In this document: one piece after another, positions 48,420 to 55,671 of the stretch
Position numbering within the stretch: the first letter of the stretch is position 1
How the letters are laid out: every line of letters starts with the position of its first letter
NCBI RefSeq assembly: GCF_017581925.1
Contig: NZ_JAGEVG010000024.1
Span: 1-55,671, forward strand
Direction of reading: 5' to 3'
Origin: Gelidibacter pelagius
GTDB lineage: Bacteria > Bacteroidota > Bacteroidia > Flavobacteriales > Flavobacteriaceae
Length of the DNA stretch: 55,671 nucleotides
The notes under the pieces: model-generated
Databases searched by the model: none
The model's input: the letters and a program-made list of their open reading frames with translations, nothing else
Told to the model about the DNA's origin: nothing
Program-made: the position numbers and the translations under genes

Positions 48420-49324
48420 TAAGACAATTTTCTAAATACCACTAAAATATTTCTCCCATCAATAAAATGACACAATATCTTTTTTAAAAATTTAGGTGAA
48501 ATCCCATTGATCATTTTTAAAAACCCAGCATAAATTGGATTAGAATTCTTAATATATGTTTTTAAAAATTGAGAATAGGTTTTTTCCAATGGTTCGTAAC
48601 TTACAGACTCCAATTTAACTTCAAAAAGACTTTCTAAGGATTTCAATGATTTCTTGTTCCATAATCCAGCATGATGTGGTGGAAAGTTAAGTGTATGATA
48701 TTTATCTTTAACGAACAAATAAGGGTTGTTATTAGGAACCCCAATAATTAGCTTTCCATTTGTTTTTATTGTTTTCAAAGAGTCGTTGATAAAATCATGA
48801 ACATTCGTTACATGTTCTAAAACCTGAAAGTAACAGACCACATCAAATTGTTCTGGATGATTCTTTGAAAACTTATCTATAAGCATACTATGTATTTTCA
48901 ACCCTTCCTTTTTGCAAATATTAATTGCCTCTGGATTGAGCTCAATACCTTCCGCTTCTATTCCTCTATCTTTTAATAGCTTCAAAAAAACTCCAAAACC
49001 AGAGCCTATTTCCAAAACTTTTTCATTCTTTTTAATAGTCGGTAATATTTCAAGATGCTCCCAACGGGTTGAATAATAATTTTCTCGATTTAATGATAAA
49101 TCTTTGTAAAAAGTTGCATCACCTATAACTGAAAATGGATAATAATATCTGTAACCTGTTTTACGACATCGTAACAATTCTATTTCTTTCGTTCCATTAA
49201 ATAATCTTGCTACGTCAATTCCCATGGAGTTGTAAGCATCAAGAATCAGCCTAGTTTTAAATGTTTCAATTTTATCAACTAAACCATCTTTATATAGAGG
49301 GTTACTATACCTTGTTTTCATCAT
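48419..49324 (-). CDS. SAM-dependent methyltransferase
   Basis: A 301-aa class I methyltransferase with VLEIGSGFGVFLKLLKDRGI (103-122), the ribose-binding acid in EGIELNPEA, and VVCYFQVLEHVTNVHDF. It follows wzt with a 20-base overlap. A methyltransferase next to Wzt often modifies the chain end that the Wzt C-terminal domain recognises; that role is inferred. Confidence 0.87.
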   Translation of the reverse strand: MMKTRYSNPLYKDGLVDKIETFKTRLILDAYNSMGIDVARLFNGTKEIELLRCRKTGYRYYYPFSVIGDATFYKDLSLNRENYYSTRWEHLEILPTIKKNEKVLEIGSGFGVFLKLLKDRGIEAEGIELNPEAINICKKEGLKIHSMLIDKFSKNHPEQFDVVCYFQVLEHVTNVHDFINDSLKTIKTNGKLIIGVPNNNPYLFVKDKYHTLNFPPHHAGLWNKKSLKSLESLFEVKLESVSYEPLEKTYSQFLKTYIKNSNPIYAGFLKMINGISPKFLKKILCHFIDGRNILVVFRKLS

Positions 49325-50579
49325 TTATAGAAATAAACCATTCTGTATCATTCTCCTTATATACTGCCGATCCTTTCTGCCAATAGTAAGGTCTTTTATC
49401 ACTGTTAATAATTTCAAAATGACAAACTTCAAATAACCTATCAAAGGCTTTCTTGCTAAAATTATCTGCAAAAAAAACATTTAATCTATACTCGCCTTCA
49501 TATAGTTTTAAGCCTCTTATAACAGAAGTTAATCTATAAATACCTTTTTCTTCTCCAAATGCTTCCTCAGTATTTAAAATAAGTTCATGGATGATAGGCA
49601 GGTTGTCATTATTTATTATTTGGTAAGAAACGGCCGGTGCCTGAATCTCTTCTGCACAATTAATTATAATTTCAACTTGTAAGTCTTCCTTGAATTCATG
49701 AAAACCTTTTTTACTGGTAATTACTTTTACACTTTTTACGTAATTCTCATTATTTCCTATTTTTTTTGAAATATAGCGTTTTGATCTTTCTTTAGTTTGA
49801 TTTAAATAAAAATCAACAGCTTCATCCGTTTCTCCTTCAAAAACGGTTTTTCCATGCTCCAAAACAATAGCACGGGTACACAAACTCTTCACCGCCGCCA
49901 TATTATGGCTTACAAACAATACCGTCCGTCCGTCGCCTTTACTAATGTCCTGCATTTTCCCAATCGCCCTTTTCTGAAACTCCGCATCCCCAACCGCAAG
50001 CACCTCATCAATCACCAAAATATCAGGTTCTAAATGCGCCGCTACGGCAAATGCCAAACGCACCCGCATCCCGCTACTGTAACGTTTTACCGGGGTATCA
50101 ATATAACGCTCACACCCAGAAAATTCAATAATCTCTTCCTCCTTGGCTTTTATTTCAGCTTTGCTCATGCCTAAAATAGCCCCGTTTAAATAAATGTTTT
50201 CTCGTCCTGTCAATTCAGGGTGAAAACCCGTACCAACCTCCAATAATGAGGCGATCCGGCCTTTAGTCTTGATCTCGCCCGTAGTCGGTCCTGTTACACG
50301 CGACAAGATTTTAAGTAAAGTAGATTTACCGGCACCATTTTTTCCAATAATCCCCAGTACTTCGCCACGTTTCACCTCAAAATTAATATCCCGTAACGCC
50401 CACACATAATCACTATCAGCCTTCGTACTGCGGTCATTTACCGATCCAATCTTTAAAAATGGATCCTCCTTCCCACGAATGCCAGCCCACCATCGGTTCA
50501 AATCATGACTGATAGTACCCGTACCCACGAGCCCGAGGCGGTATTGTTTGCTGATATTTTCGGCTTTTAAAATGATCAT
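49305..50579 (-). CDS. wzt: O-antigen ABC exporter ATP-binding protein with carbohydrate-binding domain
   Basis: A 424-aa protein. The nucleotide-binding domain (about 1-255) has Walker A GKNGAGKST (79-87), signature YSSGMRVRLAF (167-177) and Walker B ILVIDE (187-192). A C-terminal beta-rich domain (about 270-420) corresponds to the Wzt glycan-recognition domain of ABC-dependent O-antigen systems. The membrane partner wzm is at 52257-53120, but an IS3-type element now separates them. Confidence 0.92.
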   Translation of the reverse strand: MIILKAENISKQYRLGLVGTGTISHDLNRWWAGIRGKEDPFLKIGSVNDRSTKADSDYVWALRDINFEVKRGEVLGIIGKNGAGKSTLLKILSRVTGPTTGEIKTKGRIASLLEVGTGFHPELTGRENIYLNGAILGMSKAEIKAKEEEIIEFSGCERYIDTPVKRYSSGMRVRLAFAVAAHLEPDILVIDEVLAVGDAEFQKRAIGKMQDISKGDGRTVLFVSHNMAAVKSLCTRAIVLEHGKTVFEGETDEAVDFYLNQTKERSKRYISKKIGNNENYVKSVKVITSKKGFHEFKEDLQVEIIINCAEEIQAPAVSYQIINNDNLPIIHELILNTEEAFGEEKGIYRLTSVIRGLKLYEGEYRLNVFFADNFSKKAFDRLFEVCHFEIINSDKRPYYWQKGSAVYKENDTEWFISINDENKV

Positions 50580-50911
50580 TAAAATATTACTTATTCTTTA
50601 TTTTTTATTTATTGTTTGGTCGTCATTGCGAGCTTCTTAATTATGCCGTCATTGCGAACGATGTGAAGCAAATGCAGAGCATTCACTAACACCCCTTTAT
50701 CAAAACTAAAAGACGTTAGTAATCTTTGGGTTTTAGCTAACCAATTATGAGATTGCCGCGTCGTTCCTTCGTCACTCCTCGCAATGACGCTAGGTGGAGA
50801 GGCTTCTCAATGACATCTCGTTATTCTTTGTTTTGGCTTCTCTGTCCTGGCTCCTGATTCTTGAATCGTTGATCTATTTTCTATCCTCTACCGACTCTAA
50901 TTGTACTTCCC
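50580..50911. repeat. Gap with CGTCATTGCGAG inverted-repeat element
   Basis: CGTCATTGCGAG (50621-50632) and CTCGCAATGACG (50778-50789) are perfect inverted arms about 145 bases apart. A further internal CGTCATTGCGAACG lies near 50647 and GCCGCGTCGTTCCTTCGTCA near 50755. This resembles a non-autonomous mobile element seen in many bacterial genomes. TCCTGGCTCCTGATTCTTG (about 50851) links to the repeat at 1-132. Confidence 0.65.
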
Positions 50912-50932
50912 TGAATAGAGTTGACCGTTTTT

Positions 50933-51769
50933 TTAGTTATTTATTTCATTGTTAAAAATAGTTATTATTGGTCTATCTTCAGGTTTCAAGGTCAACCAAT
51001 ATTCCTCAAAATTGTTTGGGCTCATTTTTGGTAAATTTTTATGTGTTCTTTTTTCATTGTAATTTTTTACAGCTTTTGCTACACATTCTTTTAACTGAAC
51101 GGATGTTTCAGGTTTCCAATAATCTAGATACTCTTCCTTTATAGTTCTATTGATACGTTCCGCATATGCATTGTCCAATCCACTTAAGGACATACTTATC
51201 TTGGTTCCATTGCTTACCAATAAATCTATATACTTATGATAAGTGTATTGGCTTCCTCTGTCCGAATTATGAATCTCAGGTGCATTATTTTCCTTTAGTG
51301 CCATTTTAAGAGCTTCTAAATTGGCTTGAGCCCGCATGTTATCCGATACTATAAATCCAACAATCTTTTTTGTATAAACATCTATTATGAACACAGCGTA
51401 ATAGTGTTTGCCATTGAGTGGCAAATAGGTTATATCCGATTGCCATAATACGTTTGGTGCGTTTATTCTTAAGCCTTTTATTAGATTGGGATAAAACTTC
51501 TTGCCTGCTATTGTTGTACGTTTATAATTCTTCTTCCTTTTTATCCTGTAACCGAGATCCATCATGGTTTCTATAAACCGATCTCTACCTATAAAATCCG
51601 GATCTAATATATCGTACATCTTTTCAACTCCACAACCAGGATGGTCCTCCCGAAGATCATCCGCCTCTAAAATTAATTGAGACACTCGGCCATCGAAAAC
51701 GGCCTGTCGCCGTGCATACTGACTGACAGCTTGTTTACTTATGCCTATGGTTTGATAAAGCTGGTTCAT
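50933..51769 (-). CDS. IS3-family transposase OrfB (DDE)
   Basis: A 278-aa integrase-core transposase with an HTH_21-like N-terminal part (HPGCGVEKMYDIL) and catalytic residues in WQSDITYLPL, EIHNSDRGSQYTY and AYAERINRTIKEEYLDYW, matching the D-D-35-E order. The frame joins orfA by a -1 shift at AAAAAA: the -1 reading continues ATA AGC TTT AGT into the ATG at 51769. It looks intact. Confidence 0.93.
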   Translation of the reverse strand: MNQLYQTIGISKQAVSQYARRQAVFDGRVSQLILEADDLREDHPGCGVEKMYDILDPDFIGRDRFIETMMDLGYRIKRKKNYKRTTIAGKKFYPNLIKGLRINAPNVLWQSDITYLPLNGKHYYAVFIIDVYTKKIVGFIVSDNMRAQANLEALKMALKENNAPEIHNSDRGSQYTYHKYIDLLVSNGTKISMSLSGLDNAYAERINRTIKEEYLDYWKPETSVQLKECVAKAVKNYNEKRTHKNLPKMSPNNFEEYWLTLKPEDRPIITIFNNEINN

Positions 51770-51777
51770 ACTAAAGC

Positions 51778-52176
51778 TTATTTTTTCTTTATGTGTCCTG
51801 AACCAGTTGATTGTGGAGTGCCGAAGTTTTTTTTGATATCTATATTTAAATCGTCCTTTGCGATATCAATCATCTTCTCCAAATAATCTATCTTGATCTG
51901 TTTGCGCCCAACTATGGCTTCAAGCTCTTTTATTCGAGCTTGTTGTTCTTTCATCTTTTGGGTGCTACTGTTTTTCATCTCTACAATTCTTGAACCTTTT
52001 TCATTAAAGGTAGAAAATTTATGAATCCATTTGTAAATCGATACATTACTTATATTATGTAATTTCTCTAACTGAGTTACACTGAATTCTCCCGATTCAA
52101 AGTCTTTTACAATTTGTAGTTTAAATTCATCCGAATAAATGCGTTGCTTTTTCAATAGTTTAATGTTTGCTTTCAT
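51778..52176 (-). CDS. IS3-family transposase OrfA
   Basis: A 132-aa protein with an N-terminal helix-turn-helix (RRIYSDEFK-type start, then VTQLEKLHNISNVSIYKWIH) and a C-terminal leucine-zipper-like coiled coil (about 75-110). It ends in AAG AAA AAA TAA, which provides the slippery run for frameshifting into orfB. Confidence 0.9.
   Translation of the reverse strand: MKANIKLLKKQRIYSDEFKLQIVKDFESGEFSVTQLEKLHNISNVSIYKWIHKFSTFNEKGSRIVEMKNSSTQKMKEQQARIKELEAIVGRKQIKIDYLEKMIDIAKDDLNIDIKKNFGTPQSTGSGHIKKK
51783..51792 (-). promoter_or_regulatory. Likely programmed -1 frameshift site of the IS
   Basis: Near the end of orfA the codons AAA AAA precede TAA. A -1 slip reads on into the orfB frame without an intervening stop. 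This is the usual IS3-family way to make the OrfAB transposase. Confidence 0.55.
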
Positions 52177-52227
52177 AAGTTTACACTTTGTTTAAAGTGG
52201 TCAACCTATACTAGAGACATACAAATT

Positions 52228-52260
52228 TCTACTCACTAATCCCTAATGCCTAATGCCTAA
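52228..52260. repeat. Short tandem repeat at the wzm stop codon
   Basis: On the minus strand the wzm stop is TAG, followed by GCATTAGGCATTAGGGATTAG, written here in two overlapping short units. The repeat unit itself contains the stop codon. A similar word, ATTAGGGAAATGGCATTAGG, lies at 18608-18627. Confidence 0.55.
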
Positions 52261-53120
52261 ACTGTATCAATAAACGTCTTCTCCGTTTTATTAAAAATAA
52301 TAATTCCCACTAAAAATAACACAATACTAATAGCTAATGTATATAAAAAACCAAACCAAGTAAAGGTACCCGTATTGAGTAGCATATATCTGAACCCTTC
52401 AATAATTTGTGTCAGTGGATTGTATTCCACGAAATTTGCAACCCATTCCGGAAATTTTTTTCGTGCCTCCGACAACGGATAAGGCACCGCCGACATATAC
52501 ATCAATAAACTCACACCAAACCCGATCACTACGGTCATATCTCGATATTTGGTGGTCATGGATGACAGAATCATGCCCAGTCCCAATCCAAGCATGGCCA
52601 TCATTAAAATATAAATTGGAAATAATAACAAATTCATATTCACTGATAGGATACTGCCTGTACTTAAATAAAAGATATAAAAACCTGCAAAGATACCCAG
52701 CTGTATAAAAAACTTCAACAAATTGGAAATGGTTACCGACATGGGCATAATGACCCTAGGAAAATATACCTTCCCGAATATATTCTCGTTCTTTTTAAAG
52801 GTGTCACTAGTTCCGGTCAAACAATTATTAAAATAGTTCCAAGCCGTGATACCGGCAAGGTTAAACAAAAATGGAGGAATACCTCCGGTACTGATATTCC
52901 CAAGATTATTAAAAATCAAGGTAAATATAACCGAAGTAAACAAGGGCTGAATCACATACCACAACGGCCCCAAAATGGTTTGCTTATACACCGTTACAAT
53001 ATCACGCTTTACAAATAACATCAGTAAATCACGATAACGCCAGATCTCTTTAAAATTGAGATCGATCAGTTTGTTTTTGGAAGAGATGGTGTATAACCAG
53101 TCGTCGTCTTTTGTATTCAA
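52257..53120 (-). CDS. wzm: O-antigen ABC exporter membrane protein
   Basis: A 287-aa ABC-2 type permease with six hydrophobic segments. Characteristic words are LMLFVKRDIVTVYKQTILGP, LWYVIQPLFTSVIFTLIF and EYNPLTQIIEGFRYMLL. With Wzt it exports lipid-linked O-antigen across the inner membrane. The start appears to be TTG (53120); the N-terminus NTKDDDWLYTISSKNKLIDL is typical of the family. First gene of the minus-strand glycan locus. Confidence 0.92.
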   Translation of the reverse strand: MNTKDDDWLYTISSKNKLIDLNFKEIWRYRDLLMLFVKRDIVTVYKQTILGPLWYVIQPLFTSVIFTLIFNNLGNISTGGIPPFLFNLAGITAWNYFNNCLTGTSDTFKKNENIFGKVYFPRVIMPMSVTISNLLKFFIQLGIFAGFYIFYLSTGSILSVNMNLLLFPIYILMMAMLGLGLGMILSSMTTKYRDMTVVIGFGVSLLMYMSAVPYPLSEARKKFPEWVANFVEYNPLTQIIEGFRYMLLNTGTFTWFGFLYTLAISIVLFLVGIIIFNKTEKTFIDTV

Positions 53121-53580: not shown

Positions 53581-53656
53581 ATTTATTTAGTATTCATCAA
53601 CCTATATTGATATAAACTACTTACGATAGCATTGATTGAACTAATTCACAAATATT

Positions 53657-53808
53657 GCTTAGAATTTCGTCTTAGAAAACTGGTAATTTATTAAGAAGCG
53701 AGATGATAAGTAAGATGCCCACGTCTCTTGACGTGGGCTTATTTTTTAGCGGTAGCATCGCATCACAATTTCTTAGTGGCGTTTAAGCTGAGTTCCACAC
53801 TCTTTTTG
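53657..53808 (+). ncRNA. Structured element, copy 1 (candidate non-coding RNA)
   Basis: The outer stem pairs GCTTAGA (53657-53663) with TTTAAGC (53782-53788). The apical stem pairs GCCCACGTC (53717-53725) with GACGTGGGC (53730-53738) around loop TCTT. Intermediate helices include TTAAGAA/TTCTTAG or CGTC...GAAA/TTTC...GGCG alternatives. AAGCTGAGTTCCAC follows the outer stem, then CTCTTTTT. The sequence words AAAACTGGTAATTT, GATGATAAGTAAGATG and AAGCTGAGTTCCAC are shared with copy 2 while arm sequences differ. No coding frame explains it. Strand is inferred from copy 2's promoter and the T runs. Confidence 0.6.
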
Positions 53809-53889
53809 CTTTAAGAAATTATTCTTTCCTGATTCATTAACTTCGACCATTTAAAAGTCTAAACTGAAACCGCGTCTGTTAACTAAAAA

Positions 53890-53921
53890 CCCCTCTCAGG
53901 GTTTTTAAACCCTGAGAGGGG
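53890..53921 (-). terminator. Long perfect hairpin, terminator on the minus strand
   Basis: CCCCTCTCAGGGTTT (53890-53904) and AAACCCTGAGAGGGG (53907-53921) form a 15-bp stem with a two-base centre. On the minus strand it is followed by TTTTTAG. It would protect the glycan locus from transcripts coming from the right. The sequence also resembles a widespread dispersed palindrome in flavobacteria. Confidence 0.6.
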
Positions 53922-54187
53922 TGGCTAAGCTTCATTTGATTTAAACCTGGTAATTTTGATGAGGGATTTAATACCAAACAAATTCCCCACAGATGGTTTA
54001 CAATGACAAATACACCAAAGCTGGTAGTGGAAAACACCAGCAGCGACGTAAATTGATTCTTCTTTGCCTATTTTGAAAAAATTTATTATTTTCAAACCTT
54101 AAAGGTTTCATTTTCAGAACAATGTTTTTACCAACGGTTATCATAAACTATTTCATGGCTCCCAACCTCCCTTAAACACAAATTGAT
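53922..54187. other. Non-coding stretch before the 96-aa gene
   Basis: AT-rich, with a small hairpin AAACCT-TAA-AGGTTT at 54094-54108. No clear TANNTTTG box is seen before the gene at 54188. Confidence 0.4.
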
Positions 54188-54478
54188 ATGAAAACAACAA
54201 CACCGACGAAACTTATAAATCTAATTTTTGATATCTTTTATGAAGAAGAAGTTTTGAAGATTAATATTTTATATCATAGGGTTTGTGACGAACTAACCAA
54301 AATTGAATTTGTGGGAAATGAAGATCAACCATTTTATGATTTAGTTTATCATGGCATGACAAAAAAGGTTATAGAACTTTTTATATTATCGGATTACTGC
54401 CCCATAAAGAGAGATTCTCTACTAATACTTATGGAATTATTATACGATACGAAAATAAAAATAGATAACTCAATTTGA
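54188..54478 (+). CDS. Orphan hypothetical protein, 96 aa
   Basis: A 96-aa, acidic, mainly helical protein without signal peptide or membrane segment. Visible words: LINLIFDIFYEEEVLKINIL and YDLVYHGMTKKVIELFILSD. No family is recognised. A strong plus-strand terminator follows at once, which supports a real transcription unit. It lies between the two structured-element copies and faces the HTH gene. Confidence 0.6.
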   Translation: MKTTTPTKLINLIFDIFYEEEVLKINILYHRVCDELTKIEFVGNEDQPFYDLVYHGMTKKVIELFILSDYCPIKRDSLLILMELLYDTKIKIDNSI

Positions 54479-54487
54479 AGTTTAGCC

Positions 54488-54515
54488 ATTGTTGGTGTGT
54501 TTCACCAACAATTTT
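54488..54515 (+). terminator. Intrinsic terminator of the 96-aa gene
   Basis: ATTGTTGGTG (54488-54497) pairs perfectly with CACCAACAAT (54503-54512) around TGTTT, followed by TTT. It starts 10 bases after the stop codon. Confidence 0.8.
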
Positions 54516-54604
54516 CAAATTGATAGAACAAAATTTAACCAATAGAAGAGACTCAATTGATAAAAGAATAATTTTACCATAGCTTGTCAAAACCGTAAAA
54601 TCTC

Positions 54605-55099
54605 TTAATTCCACTCTAACAGTCCTTGAATATTCGTGCTTAAGGTATCCGCAACCCTAGTTAAAATTGCGATACTCAAATTTGATTTTGCATTTTCTAT
54701 TTTACTGAGATTAGAACTGTCAATATTAGAAAGAACTTCTAAGTCAAGCAGCAATTCATCCTTTTCTTTTCTTACTAATTTAATATTAGTAGCAATATTT
54801 TTCAATACTAGAGAATAATAACTATTAACATCAACATTTTCAAGTTTAATTATATCATTTAGATTATCTTGGAAAAAGATAGTTATATCAACGTTAAGGA
54901 TAATGGCAACTTTGCAAAGATTATAAATAGTAATATTTGGATTATTTAGATAGTAATACCCTATTGTACTTTTCTTTTTCTCAGGGAAGAAAATTTTACC
55001 AAATTCATACGGAGTGATTCCTTTAACAGCTAAAATATTTTGAAAGTTTTTGCTAAACTTCTTTCTATTTCTAATTTCGTTATTGTCCTTGTTTATCAT
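54605..55099 (-). CDS. Protein with two tandem XRE-type helix-turn-helix domains
   Basis: A 164-aa DNA-binding-type protein from ATG 55099; a TTG eight codons upstream is less likely. The first half (KNFQNILAVKGITPYEFGKI to NLCKVAIILNVDITIFF) and the second half (NIKLVRKEKDELLLDLEVLS to ILTRVADTLSTNIQGLLEW) each have the five-helix Cro/CI pattern. The second retains the SNLSKIENAK recognition-like segment. Such small regulators control mobile elements or toxin-antitoxin genes. A palindrome at 55127-55138 lies just upstream and could be its own operator. Confidence 0.75.
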   Translation of the reverse strand: MINKDNNEIRNRKKFSKNFQNILAVKGITPYEFGKIFFPEKKKSTIGYYYLNNPNITIYNLCKVAIILNVDITIFFQDNLNDIIKLENVDVNSYYSLVLKNIATNIKLVRKEKDELLLDLEVLSNIDSSNLSKIENAKSNLSIAILTRVADTLSTNIQGLLEWN

Positions 55100-55126
55100 A
55101 TTAATTATATGTGTTCGGAACAATTT

Positions 55127-55138
55127 GCACAGATGTGC
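55127..55138. promoter_or_regulatory. Palindrome upstream of the tandem-HTH gene
   Basis: GCACA-GA-TGTGC is an inverted repeat 28-40 bases before the ATG at 55099. It is a candidate autoregulatory operator. Confidence 0.4.
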
Positions 55139-55224
55139 TTGAAATTAAATGGGTATATATTTGAATAGGTCAATTGTTTTTTTTATATTCGCTTTGTATC
55201 CAATTAAAAAAGGTTACATTTTAT

Positions 55225-55232
55225 TACATTTG
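55225..55232 (+). promoter_or_regulatory. -7 box in front of structured element copy 2
   Basis: TACATTTG fits TANNTTTG and lies 34 bases before the first stem of copy 2. The leader after it forms a small hairpin, TTCTATA-AGATA-TATAGAA (55241-55259). No matching -33 TTG is obvious. Confidence 0.45.
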
Positions 55233-55266
55233 CGAAAGCATTTCTATAAGATATATAGAAGCATTC

Positions 55267-55410
55267 GCTTAGAATCTCGCCGTTGAAAACTGGTAATTTT
55301 TGGAACGAGATGATAAGTAAGATGCTCACGTCAACTGACGTGGGCTCACTTATTGTTCCACGGTATACCAGTACTTCAACGGCAATAAGCTGAGTTCCAC
55401 GTCTTTTTTT
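55267..55410 (+). ncRNA. Structured element, copy 2 (candidate non-coding RNA)
   Basis: An almost continuous rod. GCTTA (55267-55271) pairs with TAAGC (55386-55390); GCCGTTGAA (55279-55287) with TTCAACGGC (55375-55383); ACTGGTA (55289-55295) with TACCAGT (55366-55372). Further in, TGGAAC (55301-55306) pairs with GTTCCA (55355-55360), ATAAGT (55313-55318) with ACTTAT (55348-55353), and GCTCACGTC (55324-55332) with GACGTGGGC (55337-55345) around AACT. CTGAGTTCCAC then CTTTTTTT follows. The overall architecture matches copy 1 while several helices differ in sequence, which points to selection on structure. Confidence 0.65.
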
Positions 55411-55479: not shown

Positions 55480-55660
55480 CAGTTAGAATTAGTCTTAGGA
55501 TAGCTGCCGCTAAAAATAATCATTGGTTATTAGTCGCACATCATTAGGCTTAAACCTTAAAAAAATGCCTATGTAAAGATAGATTTCAAACAGAATACCT
55601 TCAACCAAAGGATTAATAGCAGATTTACACATTAAGAAACAGTTAGAATTAGTCTTGGGA
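55480..55660. repeat. Direct repeat at the right edge
   Basis: CAGTTAGAATTAGTCTTAGG at 55480-55499 recurs as CAGTTAGAATTAGTCTTGGG at 55640-55659, a 160-base period. The word TTAGAATT..GTCTTAG also resembles the 5' start of structured element copy 1. No gene lies in 55432-55671. Confidence 0.6.
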
Positions 55661-55671
55661 ACGGGCCGTTG

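Follow-up and report, generated by a model that had tools for sequence, protein, structure and literature searches.

What are the two related sequences that lie 1602-1610 nucleotides apart, start to start, on the forward strand near the end of a contig of Gelidibacter pelagius (NZ_JAGEVG010000024.1, C20)? An initial annotation of the window, by which is meant the whole of this contig with its 55,671 nucleotides (nt), described them as two same-strand elements about 1.6 kb apart, a spacing that holds, and saw in them a duplicated structured element, either expressed as a small RNA (sRNA) or used as folded DNA in mobility. The answer put forward here is that the downstream sequence (copy 2) is an intact member of a covarying RNA family, and that it probably serves as a 5′ leader which controls the following gene by transcription attenuation. 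The upstream sequence (copy 1) is a decayed relic.

In the mechanism proposed, a leader promoter would start transcription and the nascent leader would then choose between two folds. In state I a strand termed A would hold another, strand B, within a rod (helices P3 to P7), and RNA polymerase would continue into the downstream gene. In state II strand B and a tail strand, C, would form a long terminator hairpin followed by a U run, and transcription would stop. A stabiliser of the rod core, be it a small molecule, a protein or another RNA, would turn the gene on, the core being the candidate binding site because it is the most strongly sequence-conserved part. At many loci a divergently encoded XRE-type protein may also bind an operator 5′ of the leader promoter and set the frequency of starts, as its position, the palindromes and co-inheritance suggest, and the whole would then be a module with two gates, XRE first and RNA second.

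A family present across the phylum

The view that this is a structured RNA outside the known families has held up. With Rfam 15 at gathering score a tRNA was the sole match in the whole window, eight further loci gave none, and on that ground a known Rfam family is rejected; a weak-threshold search of the element region returned sub-threshold matches only, and one divergent member had no match even at E 1. The 6S models matched neither the window nor the eight further loci; 6S RNA normally has one housekeeping copy per genome, and the present element has from 0 to 6.

The covariance-model search for homologues with conserved pairing that the initial annotation advised found them widely in the phylum, and their pairing covaries. 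A DNA search with copy 2 as query identified three places in its own genome and, at E 0.1, hit 29 of 98 genomes if weak matches and the genome of the window are counted in. When named genome records were scanned with a strict DNA pattern, at least 80 loci came to light, in Flavobacteriia, Sphingobacteriia, Chitinophagaceae and Bacteroidales and in several metagenome bins. A covariance model (R1), for whose seed 34 of 36 elements were used and copy 1 and L065 left out, finds the element in all of these loci and in both window copies, 84 in all; under stricter filters it finds it in 55 of 395 sampled Bacteroidota genomes. Up to 6 matches occur per genome, and 6 of 9 genomes in the genus of the window have the element. 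These counts are of loci and not of independent events, near-identical loci being present (L066/L076, L121/L136, L060/L128). In the own genome R1 detects four copies, two on the window contig and one each on contigs C15 and C48. The fourth of them (L225, G000:C48:146246-146427) has P4 changed on both strands, and its downstream open reading frame (ORF) starts directly after the U run.

Some copies seem to be carried on mobile elements. Six IMG/VR contigs contain the strict pattern, so some prophage or phage copies exist. That the element is mainly one of phages was rejected, as no blastn match at E 1e-5 was found in 50,697 phage records, and so was a mainly plasmid element, the search giving a single match of 73% identity over 74% of the query. 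A near-identical subgroup (L060, L067, L105, L109, L110, L123, L128 and L146), from Elizabethkingia, Chryseobacterium, Flavobacterium and others, sits by eye in apparent integrative elements; L142, which is related to it, precedes a response regulator.

A rod with a loop-strand core

The structural evidence comes from two alignments. One, A6, has 84 rows and was fitted to a model containing the rod helices, towards which it accordingly leans; copy 1 is included in its covariation counts for the rod, P2 and P8. The other, A7, holds 47 further elements, of which 6 were located in viral contigs with the pattern and 41 in whole genomes with the model, the latter being 41 of the 97 places matched there, for the most part lower-scoring ones with the six lowest omitted.

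In A6 the rod helices P1, P3, P4, P5, P6 and P7 (Table 1) have 92.1% of cells paired and 34 of their 40 pairs changed on both sides, a conserved covarying RNA fold such as an attenuating riboswitch would have. Their covariation score is 0.445, compared with 0.148 for shuffled alignments and at most 0.069 in slid controls. P4 is nearly invariant in A6 because the search pattern fixed it; in A7, which was fitted to a model containing P4, it varies with compensation, its six pairs being formed in 282 of 282 cells. Since the loop of the P4h hairpin is the partner of strand P4a, the rod core is, on this comparative evidence, a predicted loop-strand pseudoknot. Near-invariant bases cluster there among the 41 model-found members: G.AA before P4a, an A and TT after it, and the GG and CC that flank the loop.

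A further helix, P2, is compatible with the terminator state and has base 55306 in common with P5. Its covariation score is 0.315 against 0.182 when shuffled (0 of 500 as high), though on one of five measures, the number of double-changed pairs, it is not above chance (5 against 4.0 shuffled, 126 of 500).

A predicted competing terminator

For the terminator state (P8 with P4h) 15 of 19 pairs are changed on both sides, and there are 64 double-changed cells against 25.2 in shuffled alignments (0 of 500 reaching the real count); P8 was absent from the covariance model used for the alignment. Divergent rows, for example L094, L114, L115, L125, L129 and L141, keep both pairings by eye. Through strand B the predicted rod and terminator folds are mutually exclusive, and both covary.

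Folding energies are of a piece with this. Folded by itself, the 3′ half in A6 reaches a median of -32.1 kcal/mol when it carries its real tail but -17.5 when the tail is shuffled (-34.3 and -19.2 in A7), and tail shuffles are equally stable in at most 1 of 100 cases for 80 of 83 elements of A6 and 47 of 47 of A7. Median energies of the rod, with its tail unpaired, and of the terminator are -51.3 and -52.4 in A6, and -55.6 and -53.7 in A7. At least four U occur in the 7 nt after the stem in 117 of 130 family members, a count that has no composition control; the folding-energy and U-run counts exclude L112, whose 3′ end is truncated. As far as comparison and thermodynamics go, the family thus has what an attenuating riboswitch has, an expression platform exclusive with the core. 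In one subgroup (L228, L237, L239, L241, L250, L257 and L261) a small extra hairpin of the CACT..GG..AGTGA type is visible by eye between the U run and the start codon.

Intact and decayed copies in the window

The resemblance between the two window copies is as first described. The three blocks that they have in common, with the motifs quoted for them, measure 49 nt (86%), 33 nt (88%) and 35 nt (77%), and in both the apical stem is 9 bp long; its loop is TCTT in one and AACT in the other, and one of its pairs is C-G in copy 1 but T-G in copy 2. Copy 2 does form a long folded rod, at -57.3 kcal/mol (z -7.7, 0 of 200 shuffles equally stable). Its 5′ boundary had been placed too far downstream, the 37-nt hairpin at 55232-55268 being part of the element. 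Of the T runs said to follow both conserved tails, that of copy 2 stands, as the U run at 55404-55410 read from the sequence.

What falls is the idea that copy 1 still works. Most of its consensus helices have lost pairs, with 5 of 7 kept in P3, 4 of 7 in P4, 1 of 3 in P4h, 3 of 5 in P5 and 5 of 7 in P8a, P2 and P7 being retained. Its own fold is weaker than that of copy 2 (z -3.0), and its -7 region reads TACTTACG. Its tail adds no stability: in the tail-shuffle test its 3′ half is matched by 31 of 100 shuffles, that of copy 2 by 0 of 100. Copy 1 is a decayed relic, and a duplicated functional pair is rejected. Because it is a relic, the C-G to T-G difference between the copies, taken earlier as covariation, is uninformative, and it is the family alignments that carry such evidence instead. 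An outer GCTT/AAG(C,T) helix that can be drawn in both window copies is not consensus, its motif pair occurring in just 42 of 84 rows. Just 3′ of the decayed copy, at 53889-53922, lies an inverted repeat that is perfect over 16 bp and has a spacer of 2 nt.

Table 1. Positions in the window of the two elements, the parts of the leader and its upstream neighbours (aa, amino acids)
Feature	Position	Strand	Observation
Copy 1 (W1), decayed leader	53623-53807	+	damaged in promoter box, P3, P4, P4h, P5 and terminator
Divergent XRE-type regulator, 172 aa	54605-55123	-	Pfam HTH_3, 23.9 bits against a cut-off of 23
-7 box TACATTTG of the predicted leader promoter	55225-55232	+	read from the sequence
Intact leader (copy 2)	55232-55409	+	member of covarying RNA family
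P1, 5′ hairpin of the leader	55232-55268	+	8 of 8 tested pairs changed on both sides (A6)
P2, 5′ strand TCTCG; partner 55306-55310 (CGAGA)	55275-55279	+	crosses the rod
P3, 5′ strand; partner 55376-55382	55280-55286	+	7 of 7 pairs changed on both sides, 95.8% of cells paired
P4, 5′ strand ACTGGTA (P4a); pairs with P4h loop 55366-55372	55289-55295	+	covariation in A7
P5, 5′ strand (55302-55306; partner 55355-55359) and P2, 3′ strand (55306-55310)	55302-55310	+	P5, 5 of 5 pairs changed on both sides
P6, 5′ strand; partner 55348-55353	55313-55318	+	two sub-helices, 95.2% and 78.7% of cells paired
Strand A, 5′ side of apical stem P7 (predicted antiterminator)	55324-55330	+	95.8% and 98.5% of cells paired
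Strand B, 3′ side of P7, alternatively 5′ arm of predicted terminator P8	55337-55353	+	covariation of P7 and P8
P4h, GGY(loop)RCC hairpin; loop pairs with P4a	55362-55375	+	GGU/ACC and GGC/GCC alternate
Strand C, 3′ arm of predicted terminator P8	55385-55403	+	covariation of the terminator state
U run after the terminator stem	55404-55410	+	sequence

Leader, free RNA or DNA site

The orientation of the next ORF, with a minimum length of 90 aa, was read at 116 loci. It agrees with that of the element at 97 and is opposite at 9, and at the other 10 no such ORF was found in the fetched stretch; for the 47 further loci the split is 42 to 5. A position 5′ of a same-strand gene is again that of an attenuating riboswitch, regulation of the gene by the element being putative. 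The median gap between element and gene is 208 nt over the 97 same-strand loci, in 19 of which the start codon is at most 60 nt from the end of the element.

Of the earlier suggestion of an expressed sRNA of unknown family, the structured RNA without an Rfam match stands, and the free-standing sRNA is less likely than a leader acting in cis because of the co-orientation of the next gene and the conserved competing terminator. Such an RNA, trans-acting and about 180 nt long, would have its own promoter and terminator, and the following gene would be merely a cassette neighbour along with that for the XRE protein. The conserved promoter box and terminator, the several copies per genome and the long gaps to susC at many loci would then find a ready explanation. 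We regard it as unlikely in view of the strength of the same-strand bias, the start codons directly behind the U run at some loci, and the conserved rod, since a plain sRNA would need no such competitor of its terminator.

Processive antitermination RNAs such as put and EAR (the latter being, we take it, epsC, RF01735) load on RNA polymerase and allow it to pass later terminators in long operons. They are likewise structured leaders before such operons, and a relative of theirs could have the compact pseudoknotted core, the unrelated downstream genes and the long variable 5′ regions with further hairpin-like runs that are visible by eye before susC. Unlike them, the present family has its own overlapping terminator, and some copies directly precede short genes, so that membership of that class is decidedly improbable.

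Nuclease-dead Cas12f is said to act with sigma factors at susCD genes, though our literature search did not find reports of this, and a structured RNA adjoining susC in Flavobacteriia might in principle act as guide or scaffold for an RNA-guided protein (dCas12f, TnpB or IscB) or for the reverse transcriptase of a retron. The 3′ end is a conserved terminator arm and not a variable guide, and no nuclease or reverse transcriptase was recognised by eye in the recurrent neighbour clusters of 36 elements, at which no profile search was aimed; the chance of such a role is very slight.

A folded single-stranded DNA recombination site, attC-like or a transposon end, would be in line with the initial alternative of a DNA element used in mobility. 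In the window two copies flank a small cargo, 6 of 36 elements have a tyrosine-recombinase-like cluster in their vicinity, of which Pfam confirms two members, and the reverse and forward strands hardly differ in folding (reverse z -7.8 for copy 2 and -3.3 for copy 1), so that energy alone cannot tell the strand of the element. Proteins of the phage integrase family, without assignment to the integron integrases, also occur near some copies. In 61 of the 83 distinct rows of A6 one apical position has a G-U pair, which is standard in RNA and not in DNA. This pairing and the terminator argue for RNA, and an attC-like site was set aside as very unlikely; the promoter-like box, the U run, the co-orientation with the next gene, the decay of one copy of the window pair and the presence of a recombinase near just those 6 elements are also at odds with it, and any DNA-site reading now has next to no probability. 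Attenuation by a leader peptide was set aside as well, the few leaders viewed by eye having no shared short ORF, with no systematic test made.

Promoter box, XRE regulator and palindrome

To return to the attenuating leader, the good -7 box noted earlier for copy 2 is indeed of the TAnnTTTG type, the Bacteroidota promoter box consensus. The first upstream ORF is divergent in 82 of 116 loci, and a box-like match, by a permissive pattern used without a chance control, is present in 77 of these 82 and in 20 of 28 loci without a divergent ORF. HTH_3 is matched by 48 of 75 divergent upstream proteins, the tally having covered 75 of the 76 short ones. Three XRE proteins from other loci resemble controller proteins in PADLOC models, and the window's own does so more weakly.

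Of the 82 loci that have a divergent ORF, 42 contain a palindrome just 5′ of the promoter box for which at most 2 of 40 shuffles are as good; of the 28 that have none, 3 do. In many loci the XRE-type protein probably binds this palindrome, the predicted operator. Over 76 loci XRE similarity correlates with operator similarity (Mantel rho 0.131, maximum of 500 permutations 0.074), a correlation to which common ancestry of whole loci contributes; the operator similarity score is 14.3 for 140 similar XRE pairs and 7.6 for 2144 dissimilar pairs.

Downstream genes

SusC-like products are encoded downstream of 16 of the 36 first-set elements, one member being SusC/RagA by NCBIfam. A Pfam tally of 58 of the 97 same-strand proteins, from which repeated SusC was mostly dropped, has sigma-70 family proteins 7 times, the TonB plug domain 6, RibD_C 4, response regulators and redoxins 3 each and RteC twice; many secreted-looking or unidentified proteins were seen by eye in the second set. 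Two recurrent downstream families, of 110 aa (L082:3649-3978) and 174 aa (L080:4373-4894), were aligned with their relatives (A2, A3). One member of each was scanned and had no Pfam match above cut-off and no NCBIfam or PADLOC match, the 174-aa family having one below-cut-off match to TraG_N.

The likely target of copy 2 is on another contig. The last 77 bases of the window (55595-55671) are the first 77 of contig C34 (G000:C34:1-77), an overlap that is probably an assembler leftover at a shared k-mer, with the contig break an assembly-graph junction. The first genes on C34 encode a SusC-type protein of 996 aa, which combines a TonB plug and a CarboxypepD_reg-like domain, then a SusD family protein of 465 aa and an M16 peptidase of 964 aa. 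From this junction and gene order, copy 2 most likely heads a susC-susD-M16 peptidase operon that continues on C34.

Between leader and susC in the window's genus there is a second repeated block, TTAGAATTAGTCTT.GGA..G, with flanking complementary runs, at 55480-55500 and 55640-55660 of the window and also at L035, L038, L039, L050 and L224; it looks like another structured 5′ element. Elsewhere in the window, within 49305-53120, a transposase pair (50933-52176, rve and HTH_Tnp_1), presumably of IS3 type, sits between genes for a Wzt_C-type ATPase and an ABC-2 permease, which are probably one polysaccharide export pair.

Points against attenuation

Several observations weigh against an attenuating leader. 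The P8 covariation score, 0.229 against 0.183 shuffled, is much weaker than that of the rod and could be partly indirect, since strand B is common to both folds. The near-balance of rod and terminator energies holds with the rod tail unpaired, and the minimum-energy fold of full-length copy 2 favours the rod, at -66.0 against -54.6 with the terminator forced. At many SusC loci the gap is of hundreds of nt, with another promoter being possible, and the palindrome test is negative for the window's own copy (z -0.5, 26 of 40 shuffles as good). The gene set of a metabolite riboswitch is usually consistent, and here the downstream genes, for SusC, sigma factors, response regulators, RteC, RibD_C/DHFR-like proteins, redoxins and secreted proteins, have no common pathway.

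Relation to known systems and implications

Terminator/antiterminator riboswitches and protein-sensing attenuator leaders form a general class of 5′ leaders that likewise combine a conserved core with a terminator incompatible with part of the fold of that core. Unlike the known classes, the present family has no Rfam 15 match, precedes unrelated genes and is at many loci linked to a swappable XRE-operator unit. Among the Rfam families from Bacteroidetes named in PMC2864571 are 6S-flavo (RF01685), Flavo-1 (RF01705), Bacteroid-trp (RF01692) and Bacteroidales-1 (RF01693), structured RNAs of the same phylum none of which scores on the window or the eight further loci at gathering score; epsC (RF01735) is listed there too. 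A set of 3161 candidate structured RNAs from the human microbiome, some of them mostly in Bacteroidetes, has cbiO (219) and HTH-XRE (100) as its commonest neighbours (PMC8040213), and a frequent HTH-XRE neighbour is likewise a trait of the leader family, a fragment of which may already be among those candidates, unnamed. Literature searches, which did not cover the supplementary tables of PMC8040213, found no publication naming the element. As a kind of device, terminator versus antiterminator is familiar. What appears to be new is the family itself, with its core and its association with XRE-operator units.

That the targets are unrelated, that presence is sporadic and that one genome may have several copies all speaks for a portable module that responds to a general signal and not to one nutrient. 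A bolder proposal, which we offer tentatively and consider rather doubtful, is that the leaders are a new phylum-wide class of ligand-sensing RNA, an orphan riboswitch. It would be a portable two-gate module of XRE repressor, matched operator and bistable leader with a loop-strand pseudoknot at its core. The module would pass from genome to genome as a whole, and its targets would be nutrient receptors, regulators of integrative elements and drug-target-like enzymes. If so, the unrelated targets would point to a stress nucleotide, envelope or translation stress, or an antibiotic as the signal.

Regulation of susCD operons and of integrative elements in Bacteroidota has been studied mainly via sigma factors, two-component systems and sRNAs. 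With the family in about one seventh of the sampled genomes of the phylum, it and its alignment offer a direct test system for the signal that would flip the switch, and also for XRE proteins and RNA switches as interchangeable parts. The covariance model could relabel long unexplained 5′ regions.

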